Assembly (NCBI GenBank): GCA_019316985.1 | Contig: CP079215.1 | Location: forward strand, 2,356,001-2,420,000 | Source of the DNA: Paraniabella defluvii | GTDB lineage: Bacteria; Bacteroidota; Bacteroidia; Chitinophagales; Chitinophagaceae | Direction of reading: 5' to 3' | Length of the DNA: 64,000 nt | Shown here: positions 28,605 through 40,984 of the stretch, one piece after another | Layout of the letters: every line of letters starts with the position of its first letter | Position numbering within the stretch: position 1 is the first letter of the stretch | Made by a program: the position numbers and the translations under genes | The notes under the pieces: model-generated | Told to the model about the DNA's origin: nothing | What the model saw: only the letters and a program-made list of their open reading frames with translations | Databases searched by the model: none

Positions 28605-30187
28605 ATGATCAAAAGCATTGTTGCTGTTATTACCCTTGCGGCTTTTTCTGCAACCGTTCATGCGCAGTTTAGCTGGAACAGGCTGCCGGAAGTAAAGAAA
28701 ACCTCGTTTAAAAAAGACAGCTTTAATATTGTAAAGTACGGAGCCGTATCTAACGGGACGGTTTTAAACACGGAGAGTATAACCAAAGCCATTAAGGCCT
28801 GCAATGCCAATGGAGGCGGTGTAGTTGTAGTGCCGTTTGGTATTTGGCTTACAGGGCCGCTGGAGCTGAAAAGCAATGTAAACCTGTATGTTCAAAAAGG
28901 TGCGATGCTGCTGTTTACCAATGACAAAACAAAGTATGAAATAGTAGCAGGTAGTTATGAGGGCAGAAGCTCAGCGCGTAACCAGTCGCCGATATGGGCC
29001 AAAAATGCCGAGAATATTGCTATTACCGGTGGTGGTGTGATTGATGGTAATGGCGATATATGGAGAGGTCTGACCAAATCTGCGGTGACGGAATCTTTCT
29101 GGAACGCCCGGGTAAAGTCGGGTGGCGTTTTAAGTAGTGACGGTAAAAGATGGTATCCATCGGAGCAATTTAAAGTAGCCAGCGAAACCAAGCGCAGTAT
29201 GTTGTTAGAGCCGGGAAAATTGTTAAGCGATTATACCGATATGAAGGATTTTTAAGGCCCAACCTTTTAGTATTGACACAATGCAAACGTATTTTGCTGG
29301 AAGGCGTTACGTTCCAGAATTCCGGTGCGTGGAACCTGCATCCGCTGATGAGCGAGGACCTGATCATCAGGAATGTAACGGTGAAAAATCCTGAGTACTC
29401 GCATAATGGCGATGGGCTTGATATAGAGTCGTGCAAAAACTTTATCGTGGAAGATTGCGTGTTTGACGTAGGTGATGATGCCATCTGTATAAAATCAGGT
29501 AAAGATGAGGAGGGACGCAAACGTGGCATGCCTACGCAAAATGGCATTATCAGGAACAACCTGGTATATAAGGGCCATGGTGGCGTGGTGGTAGGCAGCG
29601 AAATGAGCGGTGGTACTAAAAATATCTTCATTGAGAACTGCCTTTTTATAGGTACGGATAAGGGCTTGCGTTTTAAATCTGCCCGTGGAAGGGGTGGAGT
29701 AGTGGAAAAGATTTATGCCCGCAATGTCCAGATGCGCAATATAGACCAGGAAGCTGTTTTCTTTGACATGCATTACGCAGTAACATTTGCAACAGACGGC
29801 GTGAGAAAAATAGACACCACTTTTGGAGAAGGTACGCCTGTTTTCAGGGATATGGAGTTTGAGAATATTGTTTGTGATGGGGCAAAGAAGGGCATTTTTG
29901 TGCGAGGACTACCTGAAGCAGCCATACAAAATATCCGTATAAAGAATACTACATTGATTACAGACATTGGTGCCGAACTGATCTTAGCTGATGGAATAGT
30001 TCTGGACCATGTGAAATTTGAAAGCAAACAAAAAGACCCGGTAGTGTTGGTGCATAACAGTAAGAATATTGAAATAAATAAACCTGTTTATCCAACGGAT
30101 ACCAAATTATTCCTCAAAGTATCGGGCGGCAACAATATTAAAGTAGATCAAACCCTGGTAAATACAGGAGAGGTTGCGAAATGGTAA
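28605..30187 (+). CDS. GH28 polygalacturonase-family glycosidase
   Basis: A secreted pectin hydrolase, predicted to cleave galacturonan or rhamnogalacturonan by inversion. The signal peptide is SIVAVITLAAFSATVHAQ. A right-handed beta-helix follows, opening with FNIVKYGAVSNG. Family motifs in order are NGDGLDIES (~residue 267), GDDAICIKSG (~289), GHGGVVVGSE (~323) and LRFKSARGRGG (~354), supplying the catalytic Asp triad, His and the Arg-x-Lys pair. One break at about 29252 (GATTTTTAAGG) is repaired by one T, giving DFLRPN and a protein of about 528 residues. The operator-like palindrome at 28476 and the CE12 and GH78 genes elsewhere in the window support a pectin role. Exo- versus endo-action cannot be told. 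Confidence 0.92.
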
Positions 30188-30259: not shown

Positions 30260-32623
30260 TTAAAACTGTATGCGGTAATTGAAATTAGGCCAGAAGCCCA
30301 GCTGGTTCTGGGTTCGTATTTTTACCCGAGCGGCTGTCGTACCACTGATTAAATATATTTTTATGATTGGTTACATTCTGGAAGTCTACAAAAACTCCTG
30401 CATAAATCCTTTATTGTTCATGCGGTAAGTAAGCTTACAATCGAGGCGGAAATAGGCCGGTGTTTTTTCTTCAAATGACCGGGACTCGTAGTAAATAACC
30501 CTGCCAGCCGCCTTGGAAGCCTCCTCGTTAATGGGTGTAAATCTTCTGCCACCCGCAGTAACTACTTTCAGGTCTGCGCCGATGGTATGTATCCCGGCAA
30601 TCCGCCACTCTTTTCCTGCCAGGGCGTTGGCAACATAATTACCGTTGAATACTGTATGGTGTGCTACACCATTGCTTCCTTTATACTTCGACTCAAAAAC
30701 CGAAACAGTAGCTAATGCATAATATCCGTGAGCGAAGGGTTTTTCCACTGTCAGTTCCAGGCCGTAATTGGTGCCGGTTCCTTGTTGACCAGGCTGTCTT
30801 CCAGCCCTGATCCATATCCGGCTCCTATGTTGAGCGCAGACCAGTCGGATAACCTTTGTTCTACCGGTACCTTACGCAGCAGCTGGGTGTATGCTTCCAG
30901 TTTGTATTTCCAGTTATTTTTTAAAGCTTTTTCCCAGCCTGCCACCATATGATGGCTTTGGGTAAAATCCAGGTCGCGATTGGTTTGCATATATTCATCT
31001 CCCACCCTGGTTTCGTGGAAATAGCTCATAAGTGATTGCATCTGGCTGTGCTTCCCGTACGCCAGGGTAAGCGCGCCGGCTGCCGGAAGCGTGTACCGGA
31101 GCCCCAACCTGCCTTCTACTGAAGTGTTACTGTTGAGCGCCAGGTATTGACTATAAACGCCGGAATTAAGCGTGAGCCGCGGACCAAACCGGTGCTGCCA
31201 TTGCGCAAAGCCGCGTAGCAACCGGGTGTGGTTTTTCTCCACTGCAAAGGGAATGAAACCGTAGTCGGCATTCCTTATACTGTCGCTATAGCTATAGTGC
31301 AACTGATCAGCCGTAATGCCTGCCGTAAGCCGGTCGCTCGCAGAAAACTTCTTATTAACTACCAAACTGGCCAGGTATCGCCATTCATTGCCATTTTGCC
31401 TGAAGTTTTTATGGGCTATTCGCTCTGCATCCAGTGAATCCTGCCGGGTAGTTACGTTGGTGCCTGTAGCTGCTATAGTTAAGGTATAGGAGGTAGTGTT
31501 GTTGAAAAAATAAGTATGTTTAATGCCTGCCACGCCCATTTTGGTAGCATTATAAAGATTACTGTAGGGATCATTGTAAAATTTGCCGTGTCTTTCAGTT
31601 CCCCAGGAAATTGATATTACTGGTGCCTCCCATGCCAAACAGGGTAAATTGCCCGGCTTTTTTGCAGGCAGGTCTGCTTTAAAACTAATGTCCTGGTAAG
31701 CAGGAACGGCAGCACCGGTTCCTACATCAACGCCTAATGAGCTGATGAGGCCGGGAATACTGTACCGGTAATAAACCAGGTAAGAGGCTTTGCTCGTCTT
31801 ACTGAAGGGTCCTCGGCGCCCAGCTCGAGGCCGTTAAAGCCAATCTGGCCTGTAAATTCCCTTTTATTATTGTTGCCGCTTCTCAGGCTCAGATCAAAAG
31901 CACCGGCCGTAGCATTACCAAACTGAGCCGGGAACGCCCCGTGTAAAAAGTTGATTGCCCGATAACATTATTATTGAGCATACCTACCGGGCCGCCGGTG
32001 GCGCCCAGGCTGCCAAAGTGGTTGGGATTGGGAATATCTACTCCTTCCAAACGCCAAAGCAGCCCTAAAGGAGAGTTCCCTCGTATAATAATATCATTGC
32101 TGCCGTCGTTCAGGCTACCGACACCTGCAAAATTTGAAGCCATCCTTGCTACGTCGTTGCGGCTACCGGCAAAGCGCCGCGTATCCTCGGCATTAAATTC
32201 CATGGCGCTTACAGTAGCCATTTGCCGGGCCGCCAGCTTTTCACGCCGGCCGCTAACCCATACCGCTTCTTCCGACCGGCCTATTTTTTCGAGTAATTCA
32301 ATATTTACGATCGCCTCTTTTCCCGATTCCACTACTATATTCGATAATTGCGCAGCCTCGTAGCCTACATGAGTGGCGGCCAGGCTTACCCGCCCGAGCG
32401 GCACCCGGCGTATAGAATAATAGCCCAGGCTGTCGGTGGTAGCTCCGAGGGTTGTACCATCAACCTGGAGGTTTACCTGCGCCAATCCTTTTTTAGATTG
32501 CTGGTCGATAACCCGGCCTCTCAGGGTTTGGTATTGCTCCTGGCCATGGGTTGCAAGAGCAATCGATACAAATAGCAGTAACAGGAAATATGTTTTTCTT
32601 TTTAGCTTTTCTGGCCACATCAT
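30260..32623 (-). CDS. TonB-dependent receptor with carboxypeptidase-regulatory domain, frameshifted
   Basis: An outer membrane receptor of about 790 residues. The start at 32623 (tandem ATG ATG) puts a signal peptide (TYFLLLLFVSIALATHGQ) in frame. A CarboxypepD-reg-like domain follows (LRGRVIDQQSKKGLAQVNL), then the plug (DVARMASNFAGVGSLNDGSND, IIIRGNSPLGLLWRLEGVDIP). The barrel is split by breaks near 31915, 31800, 31640, 30750, 30395 and 30320; the last joins the end to FWPNFNYRIQF. Unlike the receptor at 23809 it has no siderophore-type plug. It is divergent from the LytTR regulator gene (194 bp gap) and beside the ApbE/PepSY/DUF2271 genes, so iron, copper or flavin-linked cargo is possible but unproven. 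Confidence 0.85.
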
Positions 32624-32763
32624 TGTTTGTTTTTGATTGATTTTTTGATTTTCGTAAAAGTAGTTTTCAGATAACCGGCGCATCTTTTTTGGGGCGGATA
32701 GCAAATACTAAGGGGTAAACGGCATTTTGGGATGAATGGTACGGCCCAATCCCTCATAATTAA

Positions 32764-32816: not shown

Positions 32817-33757
32817 ATGCACTGGAAAATATTAAGAGAGCCGTTCCCCATCAACACCTGGCAATGGTACCGGTTGCGCGGGATCGGATTTGGCTTATTC
32901 GTATTCCTGTTTCTCTTCCTGTTCCAGCCTTTTAGTCTCAATCTTTTTGATACTAAAAAGTTATTATATGTTACCCTGGTGTATGGTGCGGTTACCGGCG
33001 CCGTTATTTTATGCGGTGGATGGATATTTAGTAAATGGATAGCGCCCCGGTTAGATGACGAAAAATGGACATTGGGCAGGCAGATTGTATGGAATGTATT
33101 GCTGATGATTTTTATTACCCTGCTGAACGTATACGTTACCCAGTTAATGCATCAAACCGTTTTGCCGCTATGGTGGTGGTTTGTAATGTTGAAATGGGTG
33201 CTGATGCTGGGCGTGTTGCCCGTGTCAGTGGCTGAGCTTATTGCTTATAACCAGCATTTGCGGCATCATCTTAAAACGGCTACCCGGCTGTCGCAGTTAG
33301 TACAACAACCGGTGCTTCCTGATAAAGTTTCGCAACCTGCTTCCGGTTCGGGGAATAGATCGCATGACGGCTGTACCGAACTTTTGCCCGGCAGCAATAG
33401 TCCTATTGTATTAACAGGCGAAAACCAGGGGAAAAGCTGGAACTGCTTCATGAAAACCTGCTGGCGGTTCAGGCCCTCGATAATTATGTAAATGTGTTCT
33501 GGGAAGCCAACGACCAGTTGCAAAGCACGTTGTTGCGTAATACGCTCACTAATATTGCCGACCAGGTGAGTGATGCCGCTCACATATATCGTACGCATCG
33601 CAGCTGGCTGGTAAATGTGCAACGGGTGGCGCGGGTGAATGGGAATGCGCAGGGTTTAAAGCTTTCGGTTGAACTGATGGACCAGCAAGTGCCTGTATCA
33701 AGAAGTAATATACCCGGCTACCGGCAACTAACCGAGTTGCAGCACCAGGCTAATTAG
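32817..33757 (+). CDS. membrane-anchored LytTR DNA-binding regulator
   Basis: A transcription regulator with an N-terminal membrane part of about four helices (FGLFVFLFLFLFQPF, LVYGAVTGAVILCGGWIF, VWNVLLMIFITLLNVYV, WWFVMLKWVLMLGVLPV) and a C-terminal LytTR domain (YRTHRSWLVNVQRV, VPVSRSNIPGYRQL). There is no receiver domain, so the signal would pass straight from membrane to DNA rather than through a kinase. One break at about 33425-33430 joins VLTGENQG to EKLELLHENLLAVQALDNYVNVF when one base is added; repaired length is about 314 residues. It is divergent from the TonB receptor at 30260-32623. Its stop overlaps that of the convergent ApbE gene by 4 bp. Confidence 0.85.
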
Positions 33758-34741
33758 CGGCTTATTTTTTTGATCTTAAAACCGGGACTGGTTATATATT
33801 TACCTGCGTCGGTAATTATAAATGCTTTGTAACCCGGAAACTTCCTGAGTAGTTCCAGTCCTGCATCTTTGCCCAATACCATAATAGAAGTGCTGAAGGC
33901 GTTAGCCATTTCGGCATCAGGCCCCGTGATGGTTACGCTCGTCAGCCCCGTTGCAGGATACCCCGTTGCAGGGTTAATGATATGCGTGTATCGTTTGCCA
34001 TTAATGAGAGCATATTTTTCATAACTGCCCGATGTAGTGATAGCTCCGTTGATGTCTATCGTTCCTACAAGGTCGTTACTTTTAAAGGGATCATTAATGC
34101 CAATGCGCCAGGGTTTGCCATTGGGCTGGATGCCCCAGGCCTGTATGTCGCCGGTAGCATTGATCAGGCCGGCAGTGATGCCCTGGCTATCATCATATCC
34201 CTGCATTTGCCTGCTGCATAACCCTCACCCAGTGCGCCAAAGCCTATTTTCATGCCGGGCAACTTTAAAAAATGGTCGAACTGTCTTTATTGATGATGAT
34301 ATTTTTGTAGCCGACCTTTTGCCGGGCTTTCTTTACTGCCTCCGGTGAAGGCATGGCGGTCATCGTTCCATCGAATTTCCATATTTTTTCCATAGCCGCA
34401 AAGCTGATGTCGAAAGCGCCATGAGTAAGCTCAGAGATTTTCAAGGCGCGCTCCGTAAGTTCCAGCACTTCCTTATCCACTTTCACCGGCCGTATGCCGG
34501 CGTTCTGGTTTACCCTCGACACCTGGGTTTCGGGCTTCCAGTCGGAAATCAAGTATTCGATCCTGGATATTTCCGCAATAACGGTATCTATATTCTGTTC
34601 GGCTGTAAGCGAGTCTTTCGCCACTATCGTAATGTCGAAACGCCCGCCCATCAGGAAAGCGTCACGGGTACGCTTTACCTGCGCAAAGCCGGTGTTCGCT
34701 ATCAGCAAAATGAGGGACAGTATTATATATTGTGCTCGCAT
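33754..34741 (-). CDS. apbE: FAD:protein FMN transferase (ApbE)
   Basis: ApbE attaches FMN covalently to Thr or Ser of partner proteins outside the cytoplasm. The start at 34741 gives a signal peptide (YIILSLILLIANTGFAQ). Family features are DAFLMGGRFDITI near the start, SDWKPETQVSRVNQN, GAFDISFAAMEKIW, GLINATGDIQAWG, YTHIINPATGYPA and a C-terminal AFIITDAGKYITS. One break near 34215-34265 removes a base between the SSTIFLKLPG part and GFGALGEGYAADMQG. Repaired length is about 330 residues, typical for the family. It is the last gene of a minus-strand run with the reductase (54-bp gap), DUF2271 and ankyrin genes, which suggests that the DUF2271 protein is its substrate. Confidence 0.92.
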
Positions 34742-34794
34742 ATTTTTTCCGCAGGTCTCCAAAAGCTTTTTAATTTTCCGGAGCTGTTTTGTTC

Positions 34795-36977
34795 CTAATA
34801 ACAATCTGTAAGTATCTTACCCCGCTCTATCAATTCGGTAAGATGCATATTATTTTCAACCGTACAAATATCTTCCAATACTTTCATAACATCGTTCTGC
34901 ATCGACAAAGATCCGCAAAGCATGATGATGCCACCTTCCTTTATATAGCGTAAAACCGCATCACTGTCTCTCAGTAAACGATGGCTTACATATTCCTTTT
35001 CCTCTTCACGCGATAATACCAGGTGCAAACGCGCGAGGTTACCTTTTTCAATTGCTCCTCCAAAAATGGCTGGTACAATACAAAAGACGATCGTTTACGA
35101 AACCCGCAGTAAAGCTCAATAGGAATCTTCCTGCGATTCTCACTAATCATACCTAAGAAGGGCGCAATGCCCGTTCCGTTGGATACCATGATGATTTTTT
35201 TGCTTTCCCGGGGAAGCGGAAGTGCTGGTTTTTTACCAGCTTGGCTTTAATAGTATCTCCATGCTGTAAATTATTGAGGAAACCAGAACCTAAACCGTGC
35301 TCGTGAAGCTTCACACTTAATTGAATGTTTTCTTCTATCTTGCCGATAGAATAGAGCCGTTCACGGTGATCATTTTTAGGATAAACCGCCAGCAAATCAC
35401 CGGATACTGCATGCTTTAGTCGGGTAGATTTAAATTGAATGATAAAGCTGGCTTCTTCATCCAGGCCGGTGCGGCTGGCTACTGAAAGTTTTTTTAATTC
35501 AGCAGTATTCGGCTGGAGTAATTCACGTGGCATTATTAAGCTAAAACCTGCCTGGCACGTCCACTTTGTCATCCAGTCACTAAAGTCCTGCGGCGATTTA
35601 TCGTTCACCGTGTAAACGGGCAATAATGCTTTTGCCCAGCCTGCATTTTGCAGTAGCTTTTCTACTTCAAATGCAAATTGACAAAACTGGCTGAAGCTTC
35701 TCGAACCGAAACCTACAACAGAATATTGAATGTTTCGGTTTTGGGGTATTGCTTTATACGCTCTGCCAGTCTTTTTGCATTGGAAGGTGCATCACCCTGG
35801 CCATAGGTGCTGGTCATAACACGAGGTGTTCGGCGTTCGGAAATGCTGTAAAATTGGAAAGATCGGTTAAAAATACTTTCTCGCCGTGCTTGATCAGCTG
35901 TGTGTAAATGGCATCGGCAAATTTAAAAGTACCGCCGTTTTCGGAGCCTACCAGGATGATGATACGAGCCTCTTGGGCTTTGAATTTGTTTTTAGACCGG
36001 CTGCGCCTGCGTTTTAGGGTGATGGTAAAACCGGAGTAAATAAAGAACAGGATATAAGCAGATGCCAACGCGAGTATCAATGCCCAGATAGTGCCCGACC
36101 GGCCGGTATGCCAGCGCAGGCTGAAATGAGCCAGCTGGTAGGTTTTACTGTAGTCCTGTTGAGCCAGTATATCGCCTGTGAACTGGTTGATACAGAGCTC
36201 CCGGTCTTTTAGCTGCAAGTTGTAATAGTCTTCAGGAAAATCGGAGAACGGGTATTGTAATTTCTGAAGATTGTTAAGCGGGATTTTGCGAAGAACAGGA
36301 AAATCAGCCGGTTCTTTTAAAGGTTCTTCTTTGATCTTTGTTTCGTCAACCAGGGCACTGGCTTTTCCCGGCGGCGGCATCAACCTGTAAACTGCTATGT
36401 AGGTGCCAGTGAGCGCAATGGCCAGGATAAAGAATAAAGACATGCGGCCGAATACCACATGGTAATATTGGGCAAAACCGGTTTTTTCAACGTTGGAGAA
36501 AAAGTTTTTCCAGCCGTTCTGTCGCTGCGCCACCAGGAAGATACCCGACACTGCGATCAGTATCAGTAAGAAAGCGGTTATGCCCATTAGAATCCTTCCC
36601 GTTTCGTGTATAAACAGGAGCGGTGCAAAGTGGTCATCCACTGAAATAGTGGTAGTTTTTCAGTGGGGTACCTAATACCTTACCTGTTGCGGGATCTACG
36701 TATGCCTGCTTATCGCCGCCCTCTTCAGCGGCATATTTAATCAAAACAAAATGGTGATTATCTACCGAGATCTCCTGTATACCGGGAAATTTTTCCTTTA
36801 ATAAAGGTACGGTTTGGGCTAAAGTGAGCGTATCAAAACCAGCACCTTTATAGTCGCGCGATTTTTCAATAACCGGTTCAAATGCTAAAAAGATACCTGT
36901 TACGGATGCAACTGTAAGTAATAAAAAGAAGATATAGCCAGTGTTAAATGGCTATATCTCCAGATTGAAATGATCAT
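34795..36977 (-). CDS. PepSY membrane protein fused to flavodoxin and FAD/NADPH reductase (CysJ-like)
   Basis: A predicted inner-membrane flavin reductase that passes electrons from NADPH to the periplasm. The start at 36977 gives an N-terminal anchor (LTLAISSFLLLTVASVTGIF) and a PepSY repeat (AYVDPATGKVLG). Further membrane segments are GITAFLLILIAVSGIFLVA, SLFFILAIALTGTYIAVY and WALILALASAYILFFIYSGF. A flavodoxin-like domain (IIILVGSENGGTFKFA; GQGDAPSNAKRLAERI) and an FNR domain follow. The FNR part has an FAD motif RLYS, an NADP site MVSNGTGIAPFLGM and a terminal ILTDCY with the stacking Tyr. Breaks occur near 36640, 35815, 35190 and 35030. Repaired length is about 729 residues. Order PepSY then sulfite-reductase-like part is known in bacterial iron-reduction proteins; a true sulfite reductase is unlikely because of the membrane part. 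Confidence 0.85.
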
Positions 36978-37013
36978 CGTTATGAATGGTTGACTAGTTA
37001 ATTTGTTGACTTG

Positions 37014-37034
37014 TTAACCAGTAAACCAGTCAAC
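37014..37034. repeat. 21-bp interspersed intergenic repeat, copy 1
   Basis: TTAACCAGTAAACCAGTCAAC, which matches the copy at 51810-51830 at 19 of 21 positions. It lies just 17 bp beyond the stop of the minus-strand DUF2271 gene, within a longer self-complementary stretch (36989-37034) containing GTTGAC and GTCAAC. Confidence 0.6.
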
Positions 37035-37050
37035 TTTTTTTCCCCAACCT

Positions 37051-37530
37051 TTAACTACCACTAAACCTCACATACCTGATATAACCTTTACCATCCGTTT
37101 TTGCCGCCAGGCCTGCGGTAGTCAAAGGCACTTCTGCATCTTTGGTGTGATATAGCTTTTCTTCAACGGCAGTTTCAAAACGCAGGGTATAGCCTGCGTT
37201 CATCTTTTTACTGTCAATTGCTAAAGTTACTACTGCACGGTCACCGCCTCCTATAGAAGCACCGGTTACGGCACTTATTTTTTCTTTGCTTTTGGCCTGG
37301 AACTTATACCATTCTTTCAGGGTATTAAACCATTGCTTATCCGGGCCCATTACCCGGAGCGTTTTCTCGTAATCACCTTTAGGGTTGATTAATGATATAA
37401 TGACGTAAGCTTTTTCGCCCTGGTAACTGTTCATCTGTATCATGCATTTGTAGTTGCTGGTTTGCGCCCTTCCTGCATAACTAATAAAAAATAAACCAAT
37501 AGCTACTACACTTTTTATAAATAATTTCAT
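37051..37530 (-). CDS. secreted DUF2271-family protein, possible ApbE flavinylation target
   Basis: An intact 159-residue exported protein (signal SVVAIGLFFISYAGRAQ). Overall pattern (YKCMIQMNSYQGEKAYVIISL, KQWFNTLKEWYK, GYTLRFETAVEE, YIRYVRFSGS) fits the DUF2271 family of predicted periplasmic proteins. Residues 86-92 read SAVTGAS, close to the flavinylation motif (Dxx[ST]GA[TS]) recognised by ApbE, in which the last Thr or Ser receives FMN. Here that is Ser92. The ApbE and PepSY-reductase genes lie downstream in the same run, so a covalent flavin carrier in the periplasm is a good hypothesis. Gap to the ankyrin gene is 9 bp, to the reductase 73 bp, indicating an operon. Confidence 0.85.
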   Translation of the reverse strand: MKLFIKSVVAIGLFFISYAGRAQTSNYKCMIQMNSYQGEKAYVIISLINPKGDYEKTLRVMGPDKQWFNTLKEWYKFQAKSKEKISAVTGASIGGGDRAVVTLAIDSKKMNAGYTLRFETAVEEKLYHTKDAEVPLTTAGLAAKTDGKGYIRYVRFSGS

Positions 37531-37539
37531 GTTGATGTT

Positions 37540-39079
37540 TTATTGTAAGAAGGTAATAGATACATTGTTGTTTTTTAGAAACTCATTTTCCTTCGCCAGA
37601 TCATAAGCTGTTTCATCAAACCCTGTTTTCAGGTCTTTTTTACCCCTAATGCGATTAGGGATTTTAAGATCTGGTCATCTTTGGCAATTAAGGCCGCCTT
37701 ATGTAATGCTGTGGCTCCTTCTTTGTCCTGTGCATTAATATCAGCACCAAGCTCCGCTGCTTTTTTGATCAATGCTGCGTTCTCTTTAGCTACAGCCAGG
37801 TGCAACAGTGAACTGCCATCGCCTGCGGAGCTGTTATATCAAGGCCTTTGCCTTTTAACAGGGCTAGCTTTTCGGCGAATTCATCACCCTGCGGCTGTGC
37901 CTGCCCGCCCATTGGGCTGCCAGGCCTGCCTTCCCTGAAAGAGTTGAACCAGTGATACGCCAGGTTATGGCCATCTTTATCTACCACTTTAACATCAGCG
38001 CCTTTCTGCAGTAGCAAATTCACTATTTCTGCTAATCCGTTAGCAACGGCCTTAGTTAATGCAGATTCGCCTTTATCGTTTACTGTATTGATATTAGTTG
38101 TTTTAGCAAGAAGGGTGGTGATCAGCGCTGCATCTCTGCCACCTGCTGCATTAATCAGCACGGTATTGCCTTCATTGTCTTTTTGTTGATATCAACACCT
38201 TTGGCCAGGAAATAGTCAATCAGCTCTTTATTAGGACGGCGTACCAGGTTGTGCAAAATGGTAGCGCCATCTTTAGGATTGATAGCTTTGGGATCCAGCT
38301 TTAATTGTTCCACCAGGTACTGATAAACATCGATACCGTTTTGAGACATTCTTGAACCCTGTGTAGCAAAGAACAATGCACGGTTAGTAGGCTTAAGACC
38401 CTTCGCCATCAGCTTTTCCATAATGTCGCGGTTACCCAGCCTGGCTGCATAATCAACAGCGGTGCTGCCATATTCGTCTTTATCGTTAAAGGACAGTCCT
38501 TTTTTACCAGGTAATCAGACAGGCTTAGATCTTTGTCATTCGCAACACCCATTAGTAATAAGGTGGCGCCATCATCATATCTTTTTTAGGGTCTACTCCG
38601 GCTTTAAATAAGGCTTCTAATACAGGGATGTTCTTACTTCCTCCGGTAAGCGCATTGGCAACCACAGAGGTGCCGTGGCTATCGTTAAGATGTACATCCG
38701 ACCCTTTTTCGATCAGGTAGTTGATCAGGTCTATATTGCCCCTGGATGCTGCCCAATGTAAATAAGAAGCACTATGGTGTGTTTTTTTCTTGACGCCATT
38801 GCCTTCCTGCTCCACCATGAATTTAATGGTTTCCAGGGCGCTTCATTTAAGATCGCTCTTGCTGTGGGGTCCCATGAAGCCGCATCGGGTTGCGAAGGGC
38901 TATTGCCTTTTGCAATCTCTGCTTTTACCTGGTCAACCGTTGGTTTGGTTTTCCAGAAATCGGGGCTCATCAGCGTATTAGTGGGCTGTGCCCCGAAGAG
39001 CCCCGGGACGATCGCCGCCTGGCTGTGCATTTGAAATAATAGCGAGGAGCGTGAAGATGCCTAAAAATATCTGCTTCAT
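37540..39079 (-). CDS. secreted ankyrin-repeat protein, frameshifted
   Basis: The start at 39079 gives an N-terminal signal ([16 protein letters not shown]). About nine or ten ankyrin repeats follow, each of the form TxLHxAAxxGxxxxVxxLLxxGA; clear ones are [43 protein letters not shown] and [23 protein letters not shown]. Breaks lie near 39000, 38830, 38560-38500, 38165, 37800 and 37640; the repaired product is about 515 residues, ending [11 protein letters not shown]. Ankyrin repeats bind other proteins. Being exported and 9 bp ahead of DUF2271, it may scaffold the periplasmic redox proteins. No enzymatic domain is visible. Confidence 0.82.
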
Positions 39080-39232: not shown

Positions 39233-40984
39233 CTACTGTAGGCTTTGGGCAAGATGATACGCTTTTTGCATGTCCGGTAGGCCGTAACCGTGAGGGAGGG
39301 CCGGGGCGGAGTATCGGTCGGCCGACTGCTTTATTACCTCTCTTATTTGCTGATTGGTTAGGTTAGGAAATGCCTGCCATAAACAAGCGGCCATGCCGGT
39401 GACAACCGGTGCTGCGAATGAAGTGCCTGTTCCTGTAGCAATAGTGCCTAAACTGGTGATCCGGTAAGTGCCTGCGCCTAAAGCAATTATATCCGGTTTA
39501 ATCCTGCCGTTAGCCGTCATGCCCCTGGAGCTGGCGGTTGTTACCGTTCCCGAGGTGTTGACCATGCCTATTGCCAGGGCTCCCGGCGAATCGGCCGGAC
39601 TGCCAACAAAGCTGCCGTCGTTACCTGCCGATACTACTACCAGTATACCCCTGGAAAAAGCCATGGATACCCCACGTGAAGCATGGGCGGTTGCACCATT
39701 CAGTAGTTCAAATGTGTTGCTCATGCCGGGCAATGGGTATTCTTTGTAGCCCAGCGAAGTATTGATGATGTCTGCACCTGCGCTATCTGCATATTCAAGC
39801 GCGCTTACATAATAATCTTCCTCAATGGGAAATTCATCGGTATTATCTTCAGAAGTAAGTAATAAATAACTCGCTTCGGGGCTGTGCCTACATACCGGCC
39901 CGGTTGGGCGCCTCCAATGATCGATAATACGGCAACACCGTGTTCATCCATGAAAAACGGGTTGGGCTGTTCATAAATAAAAGATCTGGCTCCCAACAGG
40001 TGCATATTACTGAACATGGAGTTTTTATCTACATCTTTATAACCTGCATCTATAACGGCAATAGCGATGCTTCGGCCTTTAAAACCCAATTGGTGTAAAG
40101 CTTCGCCTTTATTTTGTCGTATGTTTTCATAGGCAGGCCCGTAAACGCTGTTGTCGGTGGCTATAGTAATATCGGGGACAGCCGGTGCATTGCTGCCGGG
40201 AAAGCTCCAGCCGCCTGAGGGTTCCTTGTAAAGGTTGCTTCTTTTAGCCCATACTACTTTAACATCGGCCACGAACGGAAGTGCTTTGTATCGGGGAGCA
40301 AAGTGGCGTCATTAATATGTACGCTAACCGTTTTCAGCCATTTGCTTTTGGCCACAACAGTACCGCCGATCTTAGCGATTTCCTGTAAGTATTCATCTGC
40401 AATAGGCAGGTCATTCTCATCTACGTTGATCGATTGTTTCTGCCGGCGTTGCAGCGCTTTGGCAGAAAGAAACGCCGATGGGTTGCTTAATGACAGCGTC
40501 GTATGCCTGCCTTTATCCTTCAGCACCAGGCGCAGTTTATAAACATTGGAGTCGGTAACCGTTACCGCACAGCGGGCCAACTCTTTGCCGTCTTTGCTGT
40601 AGGCTATTACATCTGTCTGTCCCGCCCATTTTGCTGCTATAACACCAGGCGACAAGAAGGCCACGATTTCTTCGTTCGAGGATTTCCATACTACATCTGT
40701 TGCATGTAATGTATCCTTGTTTTTGAGCAGGTGAAGCGTTTTAAATAAGGCTTCATTCACATTCAGGGTTATGCTGGAAGGGGTAATCGAATAGCCGGCA
40801 GAAGGGGTTGCTTCAGGAAGCTTTTCTTTTTACAGGCAGTAGTACTCAACATTACACAAAGGCACAGGATCCACCCGCCTAATGCTGCCGGAGCGGTTGT
40901 AAATCCCAACTTTAGGGTAGTAGTATGTTCAGGTTGCCTGTTTTCCAACGTGATTGCAGTATTTGTGCTGCTAATGTACGACAA
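39233..40984 (-). CDS. secreted subtilisin-like serine protease (S8), lipoprotein-like, frameshifted
   Basis: Subtilase triad is complete: Asp in AVIDAGYKDVD, His in DEHGVAVLSIIGG and Ser in GTSFAAPVVTGM, with the oxyanion Asn in SAGNDGSF. Upstream of the catalytic domain is a ~200-residue part with a bacterial Ig-like segment (GVIAAKWAGQTDVIAYSKDG) and an inhibitor-like segment (LRLVLKDKGRHTTLSLSNP). The N-terminus contains a lipoprotein-type motif (LCVMLSTTACKKK) but begins with about 35 extra residues if read from 40984. The true start may be later or the upstream frame broken, so the start is uncertain. Breaks near 40765, 40265, 39890 and 39740 split the gene. Repaired length is about 585 residues. 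Confidence 0.82.

Follow-up and report, generated by a model that had tools for sequence, protein, structure and literature searches.

The operon described here raises two questions: to what acceptor a flavin-based electron line built from ApbE, a DUF2271 protein and a PepSY membrane reductase would deliver its electrons, and what an exported ankyrin-repeat protein (ANK) encoded with them would contribute. It lies in a stretch of 64,000 nucleotides from Paraniabella defluvii, hereafter the window; the genus assigned in this analysis is Niabella.

Gene organization and integrity of the operon

In agreement with the original prediction, four genes lie within 33754..39079, all on the minus strand and in the order ANK (37540..39079), DUF2271 (37051..37530), a PepSY transmembrane reductase fused to a flavodoxin and FAD/NADPH module (34795..36977), and ApbE, the FAD:protein FMN transferase (33754..34741). 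The predicted families also held when Pfam was run on 10 gene pieces, with no match for one NADPH-domain piece: the E-values were 9.7e-37 for DUF2271, 1.6e-22 and 5.5e-06 (the second below the cut-off) for PepSY_TM, 2.5e-05 for Flavodoxin_1 (24.9 bits versus a cut-off of 25), 9.5e-27 and 2.8e-40 for the two pieces of ApbE, and 1e-7 to 4e-10 for the ankyrin repeats of the ANK pieces. The original prediction did not mention that an unbroken frame is present for DUF2271 only; by ORF count, ANK is in ~8 open-frame pieces, the PepSY fusion in ~7, and ApbE in 2, in two frames. The pieces of each gene match one protein of the relative L011 (516, 159, 742, and 329 aa), and intact orthologs measure about 460–590 aa for ANK, with a signal-peptide-like start, and about 720–750 aa for the PepSY fusion; DUF2271 and ApbE of the window also have signal-peptide-like starts. 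The same gene order was found again across the phylum sample, beyond chance.

The frameshifts in three of the four genes are best read as assembly indels, not decay, because rpoB of the same genome is likewise in 4 pieces, the genome completeness is 72%, Ka/Ks is 0.06 (8 pieces pooled, versus L011), and relatives carry intact copies. Decay of the operon in this organism, with the frameshifts as true mutations, would account for the splitting of ANK, PepSY, and ApbE in the assembly; against it stand not only rpoB, the completeness, and the Ka/Ks value but also the genes adjoining the operon, which are split as well, and we regard it as very improbable.

These adjoining genes were compared over 121 loci, consisting of 41 anonymous and 80 named stretches that partly overlap (e.g., L113 = G012, L114 = G001). 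A fragmented LytTR regulator gene (32817..33757, plus strand; Pfam on the L011 ortholog), to which the original prediction had given weight, was found in 1 of the 121 (L011); it was therefore rejected as a regulator and looks like a bystander. The TonB neighbor fared unevenly: the window's own TonB-dependent receptor-like gene (30386..32704, minus strand, fragmented) is matched in L011 and L165 (36% identical) and, not being conserved in the 121 loci, was rejected as an operon partner, whereas other TonB genes do lie near the operon in relatives. The L011 ortholog of the window gene has CarboxypepD_reg domains, with Plug below the cut-off. TonB and lipoprotein genes occur near the operon in 21 of the 80 named loci, which are the best 80 of 462 DUF2271 relatives, and 17 of these 21 also have an AraC-like gene. 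The operon-side lipoprotein is a distant relative of DUF4374/XusB (hhalign prob 98); DUF4374 was assigned by Pfam in 2 relatives and by a home-made profile in two more, and a DUF4374-related lipoprotein is present in 25 further of the 121 overlapping loci. The fragmented S8 peptidase gene upstream of the operon (39233..40760, minus strand; L011 ortholog) recurs, among the 121 loci, in the Niabella stretches L010/L113 and in L011 only.

Flavin carrier and transmembrane reductase

Judged from sequence, the core of the operon, that is, ApbE, a TGAS-bearing DUF2271, and a four-histidine PepSY reductase with a cytochrome P450 reductase (CPR)-like module, belongs to the flavinylation system described in the accessible part of PMC8238504. 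The proposed extracytoplasmic flavin-based electron transfer is supported, and the link between ApbE, PepSY, and DUF2271 named in the original prediction is in print there (PMC8238504). The sequence T-G-x-S is invariant in all 24 rows of the DUF2271 alignment and reads TGAS in 23 of them, including the window copy (37255..37266, minus strand), in which it is the predicted flavinylation motif of the predicted FMN acceptor. In the same report, the motif was tested in another DUF2271, and one DUF2271 was flavinylated when co-expressed with its own ApbE (PMC8238504). Sequence comparison found no solved-structure relative of DUF2271.

The PepSY_TM (PF03929) protein clusters with ApbE and DUF2271, as flavinylation systems do, and its histidines 10, 119, 174, and 291 (L114 numbering) are invariant in 25 of 25 PepSY rows; the structure model shows long helices. 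The CPR-like module follows the order flavodoxin, FAD, and NADPH domains, of which Pfam names the flavodoxin and NAD domains only, the FAD part being assigned by sequence and fold similarity. Comparison with PDB sequences did not match the PepSY part to any structurally solved PepSY reductase, the top match being YpmB (E 0.25); a sequence link to such a reductase was accordingly dropped, none being found there or in a second PDB listing that gives the best 60 of 82 rows.

Linkage of the ankyrin protein to DUF2271

ANK lies directly upstream of a stand-alone DUF2271, at a median gap of 5 bp, in 80 of the 80 named loci (best 80 of 462), 35 of which are from Sphingobacterium, so that the 80 are not independent. 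The same stretches contain the PepSY fusion in 77 and ApbE in 73 cases, and the co-occurrence check proposed for the four families was passed. A recount confirmed the family counts. In 294 genomes of the family, with scoring limited to each genome's five best first-look candidates, the ANK profile (E 1e-60 or better) was found in 22. These are all of the 23 genomes with a stand-alone DUF2271 except ours, whose ANK is fragmented; the other 271 gave no match, and ANK without DUF2271 was thus seen in 0 of the 294 at this threshold. The DUF2271 counts are of matches above the Pfam cut-off, the second copy of G666 and that of G831 lying above it with their neighbors left out (no locus). In the loci read, stand-alone DUF2271 is always beside ANK, save in L111, which is cut by a contig end.

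Within the phylum sample, the pair recurs in several orders and families. Where it has no adjacent reductase, one is present elsewhere in the genome in five of five cases (G198, G207, G878, G879, and G880, that of G879 being a partial match); a sixth pair (G274) is truncated by the end of its contig, the reductase of that genome being on a different one, and two pairs but one reductase are found in both G198 and Dyadobacter bucti. Partial correlations of the distances, uncorrected for relatedness, are 0.52 for ANK–DUF2271, 0.37 for ANK–PepSY, and −0.11 for ANK–ApbE. The top 50 PDB fold matches of ANK are ankyrin-repeat or designed-repeat chains or proteins containing such repeats. Our literature search found no paper naming an ankyrin protein and DUF2271 together, and ANK as the companion of DUF2271 is a new element, not found described in that role. 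Two other roles were considered and rejected: metal binding, as there is no conserved Cys and 18 of 28 rows have none, and action as an injected effector, for which the matching NCBIfam models scored far below their cut-offs (best 94.5 bits versus 600), as generic repeats would give.

A shared operator in relatives

Upstream of the ANK gene in Sphingobacterium, Dyadobacter, Flavobacterium, and others lies a palindrome resembling ATTTAGA-N7-TAAATAA, found at 58 of the 80 named loci (best 80 of 462) versus 6 of 240 control windows, the matrix having been trained on the same 80 regions that were scored and the controls, drawn from these loci too, possibly containing true sites. In five genomes, the pattern gave 62 matches versus 8 for a reversed control, both strands being counted and palindromic sites therefore counting twice; the 7 matches in Pedobacter G874 hardly exceed the 6 of its control. 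Among the 47 distinct sites read (G873 17, G876 15, G877 9, G875 5, and G874 1; excluding several sites of Pedobacter and, in four genomes, those of ANK), 22 have a TonB Plug gene (751–926 aa) starting within 450 bp, and others front HmuY, AraC, ECF sigma, HemA, esterase, aconitase, and DUF4198 genes. These names are from Pfam, except for the AraC-like gene of L263, named by likeness to L228; of four DUF6686-like proteins at the sites, two are below the family cut-off and one has no match. In one Parapedobacter and three Sphingobacterium genomes, the site also stands before TonB receptor, HmuY, and haem genes, so that iron control is likely in these four. In a Sphingobacterium genome (L250), a DUF4198 gene elsewhere on the same contig shares the operator, and at one site (L249) a MauG-type peroxidase gene is divergent.

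Among the named loci (best 80 of 462), neither Niabella (0/2) nor other Chitinophagaceae (0/3) showed the operator upstream of ANK, and a whole-genome scan allowing two mismatches gave 9, 2, and 4 matches in G000, G003, and G001 versus 4, 6, and 4 for the control, with none in the window; iron control is therefore predicted for the relatives and not for the window operon. In L114, a bare ATTTAGA lies 270 bp before the ANK gene, but the site scores low there. The E. coli-type Fur consensus was not enriched in the 80 named loci (best 80 of 462), its best matches being no better than those in 50 shuffles per sequence. In Bacteroidota, according to the accessible part of PMC6613475, a Fur homolog that has been studied fails to bind the E. 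coli Fur box; the palindrome offers a candidate operator for iron control in this phylum. PepSY-like clusters are described as Fur-repressed in two species (PMC8238504, PMC12004947), and ferric reduction, which is the best guess (the original prediction named a ferric or cupric reductase), is backed by the iron-type regulon motif in relatives together with the Caulobacter data (PMC12004947).

Predicted electron line and alternative explanations

We consider it probable that the operon encodes a transmembrane electron line reducing ferric iron in the periplasm, most likely siderophore- or chelate-bound, with ANK as a docking scaffold. In this predicted mechanism, electrons would pass from NADPH through FAD to FMN within the PepSY protein's cytoplasmic module, whose domains are recognizable, would cross the membrane via two haems presumably held by the four invariant histidines, and would then reach an FMN on the threonine of the TGAS motif of DUF2271, where the co-encoded ApbE may attach it. 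ANK may keep the carrier docked to the reductase or to the substrate, a role suggested by linkage, fold, and weak distance correlations. Fe(II) would then enter through a separate transporter, and in relatives the shared operator suggests that production would be controlled by iron. Flavinylated electron lines are widespread (PMC8238504). The accessible part of that report does not address how so small a flavin protein locates the partners that give and take its electrons, a question to which ANK, as a companion of DUF2271 in a large group of bacteria, offers direct access; the operon also offers a clear test of whether such clusters are ferric reductases in Bacteroidota.

ANK might instead be a periplasmic assembly factor that keeps DUF2271 open or stable for FMN loading by ApbE, outside electron transfer. 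Its place directly upstream of DUF2271 at a few base pairs (best 80 of 462) and its presence beside every stand-alone DUF2271 in the loci read, other than the contig-end L111, would suit such a factor, and AnkB, a periplasmic ankyrin protein of Pseudomonas, reportedly supports a catalase. However, seven Pseudomonadota plasmid loci and 16 loci with an ApbE-fused DUF2271 lack ANK, the distances correlate with those of DUF2271 and PepSY and not ApbE, and co-expression with its own ApbE was described as flavinylating one DUF2271 (PMC8238504), all of which makes this role unlikely. The view that the substrate is not iron but copper, quinones, or oxidised periplasmic proteins or haem enzymes under repair appears improbable to us: Pseudomonadota plasmid relatives lie near metal-efflux or P-type ATPase genes and two-component genes, and the peroxidase gene at L249 would also fit, but iron- and haem-type genes lie behind the shared operator, TonB genes are neighbors, and the links described in print are to iron (PMC8238504, PMC12004947). 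Co-regulation alone could hold genes together, and the listed PDB fold matches are generic ankyrin and designed-repeat chains, so ANK could be merely a promoter-sharing neighbor with no physical part in the electron line; we find this quite improbable, as the pair persists without an adjacent reductase and spans several families and orders, and as ANK was not seen without DUF2271 in 294 genomes (E 1e-60).

Beyond the scaffold reading, we tentatively raise a bolder possibility, namely that the functional unit may be an obligate ANK–DUF2271 pair, a flavinylated carrier on an ankyrin solenoid, which Bacteroidota would have duplicated and plugged onto a single PepSY-CPR reductase, the ankyrin arm aiming the covalent flavin at an iron-siderophore complex or its receptor. 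If true, flavin-based extracytoplasmic electron transfer would gain a new class of subunit, which in many genera would be under the control of a Bacteroidota iron operator, one for which we found no name.

Comparison with known systems

A FoxB-type reductase, which we take PDB entry 7ABW to be, differs from the present protein in that the latter is fused to a CPR-like NADPH module and has no sequence match to it in the PDB. The PepSY transmembrane core and four conserved histidines are common to both, as far as the siderophore reductase is described in PMC11334425. The PepSY-like flavinylation clusters of Meheust et al. 2021 (PMC8238504) share with the window operon ApbE, a DUF2271 with [S/T]GA[S/T], and PepSY_TM with a NAD-binding domain, and some have TonB neighbors; they are described with DUF4198 (1500 clusters), a frequent though not a required member, whereas in the window operon the upstream position is occupied by an ankyrin protein, and the word ankyrin occurs 0 times in the accessible main text. 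Caulobacter CCNA_03155-03159 likewise comprises a flavin-dependent reductase, PepSY, and DUF2271; it is a Fur target whose mutants are less fit in EDTA, and it has DUF4198, with 0 mentions of ankyrin in the accessible part of the report (PMC12004947). XusABC of Bacteroides combines a TonB receptor, a DUF4374 lipoprotein, and a PepSY reductase, and DUF4374 or a distant relative lies near the operons of some relatives studied here; no DUF2271, ApbE, or ankyrin is named with it in the accessible parts of PMC13142918 and PMC10434189. The ORF lists of the window, read by eye, show neither a DUF4374 gene nor a siderophore-type TonB gene adjoining the operon, and the XusABC arrangement of TonB receptor and DUF4374 in the same operon was not found in them.

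The seven Pseudomonadota plasmid clusters have DUF2271 in common with the window operon, along with a PepSY protein of ~720–740 aa in five and ApbE in five. No ankyrin is annotated in any of the seven, for which the PLSDB gene tables are incomplete. Five have a small PepSY-domain protein upstream of DUF2271, one of them with a cytochrome b gene between, and response-regulator genes lie nearby in all seven.

Operon genes and interrupted frames

All four families of the original prediction are present on the minus strand at 33754-39079 in the order foreseen, with Pfam backing nine of the ten operon pieces scanned: the exported ankyrin-repeat protein ANK (37540-39079, about eight pieces), the DUF2271 protein (37051-37530, the sole gene in one open frame), the PepSY reductase with its flavodoxin and FAD/NADPH domains (34795-36977, about seven pieces) and ApbE (33754-34741, two pieces), the piece numbers being our own count of open frames. 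The pieces compared correspond to parts of single proteins in relatives. The breaks are best read as assembly errors, because the essential gene rpoB of the same genome (G000, C1:1091545-1095317; 6.13 Mb, completeness 72%) also lies in four pieces, the genes adjoining the operon are likewise split, all four operon genes are intact in the relatives G003, G001 and G024, and comparison of eight operon pieces with G003 (locus L011) yields Ka 0.076 and Ks 1.28 (pooled), a ratio of 0.06 that is strong purifying selection. In Niabella hibiscisoli (G012/L113), which belongs to the same genus, the ANK and PepSY genes are split too. Since the frameshifts reach even rpoB, any gene-level reading of this genome calls for caution. 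Downstream of the TonB gene in the window, a pectinase-like glycoside hydrolase gene (28605-30187; family judged by eye) is split as well, with 527-aa orthologs in L010 and L011.

Conservation of the gene set

DUF2271 exceeds the cut-off in 38 of the 294 family-sample genomes and, by our reading of the match list, forms a stand-alone gene at 24 places in 23 genomes and part of a frame of about 500-540 aa at 16 others. ANK is directly upstream at 24/24 stand-alone places (the window's own judged by pieces), the PepSY fusion is next downstream at 21 and ApbE falls inside the available stretch at 17; the fusion is missing at the first copy of G198, in G207 and in G274, where the contig ends. Genome-wide, 22/294 genomes have a match to the ANK profile at E ≤ 1e-60 (the five best candidates of each genome scored), that is, every genome with stand-alone DUF2271 minus the fragmented one of the window, and the PepSY-fusion profile matches 24, namely the 23 with stand-alone DUF2271 and G144, whose match begins only at position 295. 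The co-occurrence that the original prediction proposed to check was found, and the set recurs across the family, order, phylum and named samples: both ANK and PepSY accompany 5/5 further stand-alone loci of the order sample, and among 24 further loci of the phylum sample ANK is present in 23 and the start of the PepSY fusion in 24, the stretch of the sole locus without ANK (L111) starting 118 bp ahead of DUF2271. In the named loci (the best 80 of 462 relatives, from 10 named genera and three unnamed Chitinophagaceae, dominated by Sphingobacterium with 35 and Dyadobacter with 17), ANK occurs in 80, the PepSY fusion in 77 and ApbE in 73. NCBI annotation of a Spirosoma plasmid gives ankyrin, DUF2271 and PepSY in this order, with a divergent TonB receptor and ApbE nearby.

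All 16 long DUF2271 frames match the ApbE profile too, and these single-frame fusions make up a second DUF2271 class within the same family; ANK is absent from their stretches (L051, L059, L062, L063, L065-L069 and L071-L077).

The ANK-DUF2271 pair, separated by a median of 5 bp, is tighter than the rest of the operon. Where it lacks an adjacent reductase (G198, G207 and the genomes of L185, L149 and L190, that of L149 by a partial match), a reductase is found elsewhere in the genome in 5/5, and G198 and Dyadobacter bucti (L156, L190) each combine two pairs with one reductase. Partial correlations of ortholog distances over 69 loci, relatedness not removed, are 0.52 for ANK-DUF2271, 0.37 for ANK-PepSY, -0.11 for ANK-ApbE and 0.54 for DUF2271-ApbE, which fits a place for ANK between DUF2271 and PepSY. 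Outside Bacteroidota, seven Pseudomonadota plasmid DUF2271 loci, picked from 96 matching records, have no annotated ankyrin in their incomplete gene tables (7/7), and five have a small PepSY-domain protein upstream. Response-regulator genes lie near these clusters (L268-L274), with metal transporters in some; L269 has genes for a transporter of VIT1 type and for a ferric reductase-like protein.

Protein features

In the intact PepSY protein of L011, Pfam delimits PepSY_TM (23-337), Flavodoxin_1 (355-475) and NAD_binding_1 (612-713). The soluble half is nearest by sequence to nitric oxide synthase, NADPH-cytochrome P450 reductase and CysJ, and by fold to the first two. The AlphaFold model has four long membrane-type helices (pLDDT 82, pTM 0.48), and 25 orthologs share exactly four invariant histidines (H10, H119, H174 and H291, L114 numbering), to be compared with the two haem sites of two conserved histidines each described for a structurally solved PepSY protein (PMC11334425). 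The DUF2271 alignment contains T-G-x-S in 24/24 rows (TGAS in 23), and the motif threonine is reported to be required for ApbE flavinylation of another DUF2271 protein (PMC8238504). Starts resembling signal peptides were seen by eye on ANK, DUF2271 and ApbE at eight loci. ANK is confidently modeled as a single long helical ankyrin solenoid of ~13 helix pairs (pLDDT 90, pTM 0.81), and its orthologs have no conserved cysteine.

An operator upstream of ANK

Upstream of ANK, an E. coli-type Fur box shows no enrichment. De novo search yielded the near-palindrome TTATTTAGA-N-T-N-ATT-N-TAAATAA, scoring >8 bits in 58 of the 80 ANK upstream regions, which are also its training set, versus 6/240 control windows. 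It is present in Sphingobacterium (27/35), Dyadobacter (12/17), Flavobacterium (10/12), Pedobacter (3/5), Runella (2/2) and four single genera (4/4), and in neither Niabella (0/2) nor other Chitinophagaceae (0/3). Genome-wide, the pattern matches 62 times versus 8 for the reversed control, summed over three Sphingobacterium genomes, a Pedobacter and a Parapedobacter, palindromic sites being counted twice as both strands were included; the Pedobacter genome alone gives 7 versus 6. Literature searches for a Bacteroidota Fur motif gave no title, PMC6613475 among them, that describes such an operator.

A TonB Plug gene (Pfam) starts within 450 bp of 22 of the 47 distinct sites read. All 22 encode 751-926 aa, whereas most Plug frames among those listed for three of these genomes, which have between 98 and at least 150 such genes each, are near 1000-1200 aa. 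One TonB gene has a divergent MauG-type peroxidase. Elsewhere the operator precedes genes for HmuY (2 sites), AraC (5, one of them assigned by likeness alone), ECF sigma factors (2), glutamyl-tRNA reductase, esterase, aconitase, DUF4198, LpxR, S41 peptidase, a PLP enzyme (site within a gene) and the ANK operon itself, and nothing was found downstream of four. Taken together, these genes make the set look like an iron and haem regulon, which as defined by the operator does not extend to Niabella. Four sites front small DUF6686-like proteins of Sphingobacterium genomes (L227:3016-3345, L239:3138-3512, L242:2632-2952 and L253:2650-2973), one over the family cut-off and one without a match. The DUF4198 gene (L250:3112-3822) shares both operator and Sphingobacterium contig with the ankyrin operon; DUF4198 is described as a frequent neighbor of PepSY/DUF2271 in published clusters (PMC8238504).

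Proposed working and the place of ANK

The analysis shows the parts, their motif residues, their linkage and, in relatives, the shared operator. From these we infer the direction of electrons along the PepSY line; the PepSY protein may bind haem, DUF2271 would carry attached FMN, iron is the presumed substrate and ANK may act as a scaffold. The ApbE-DUF2271-PepSY core is known, having been published together with 1077 NAD-binding PepSY proteins (PMC8238504). We count ANK as the novel part of the operon because no published mention was found: ankyrin has 0 occurrences in the main texts of PMC8238504 and PMC11334425 (2024), whose supplementary gene lists may contain it, and searches of the available literature returned no paper joining DUF2271 and ankyrin, no relevant one for ankyrin with PepSY and iron (Flavobacterium included), and for ankyrin with ApbE only papers unrelated by title.

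TonB and lipoprotein neighbors

TonB and lipoprotein genes share the stretch in 21 of the 80 named loci, accompanied by an AraC-like gene in 17; examples with a lipoprotein of ~450 aa are L114:2933-8115 and L117:3207-8313. A Pfam scan covered two AraC-like, two TonB and three lipoprotein genes, some via identical loci, and gave no convincing match for the lipoprotein. True DUF4374 genes lie upstream in L058 and L070; DUF4374 is described as the XusB family (PMC13142918), and a Bacteroides PepSY/DUF4374/TonB locus is reported to rise 489-676-fold in low iron (PMC10434189). By profile, the lipoprotein aligns to DUF4374 (probability 98, E 1.5e-13); it is distantly related to DUF4374/XusB and could represent a new family of siderophore-binding proteins.
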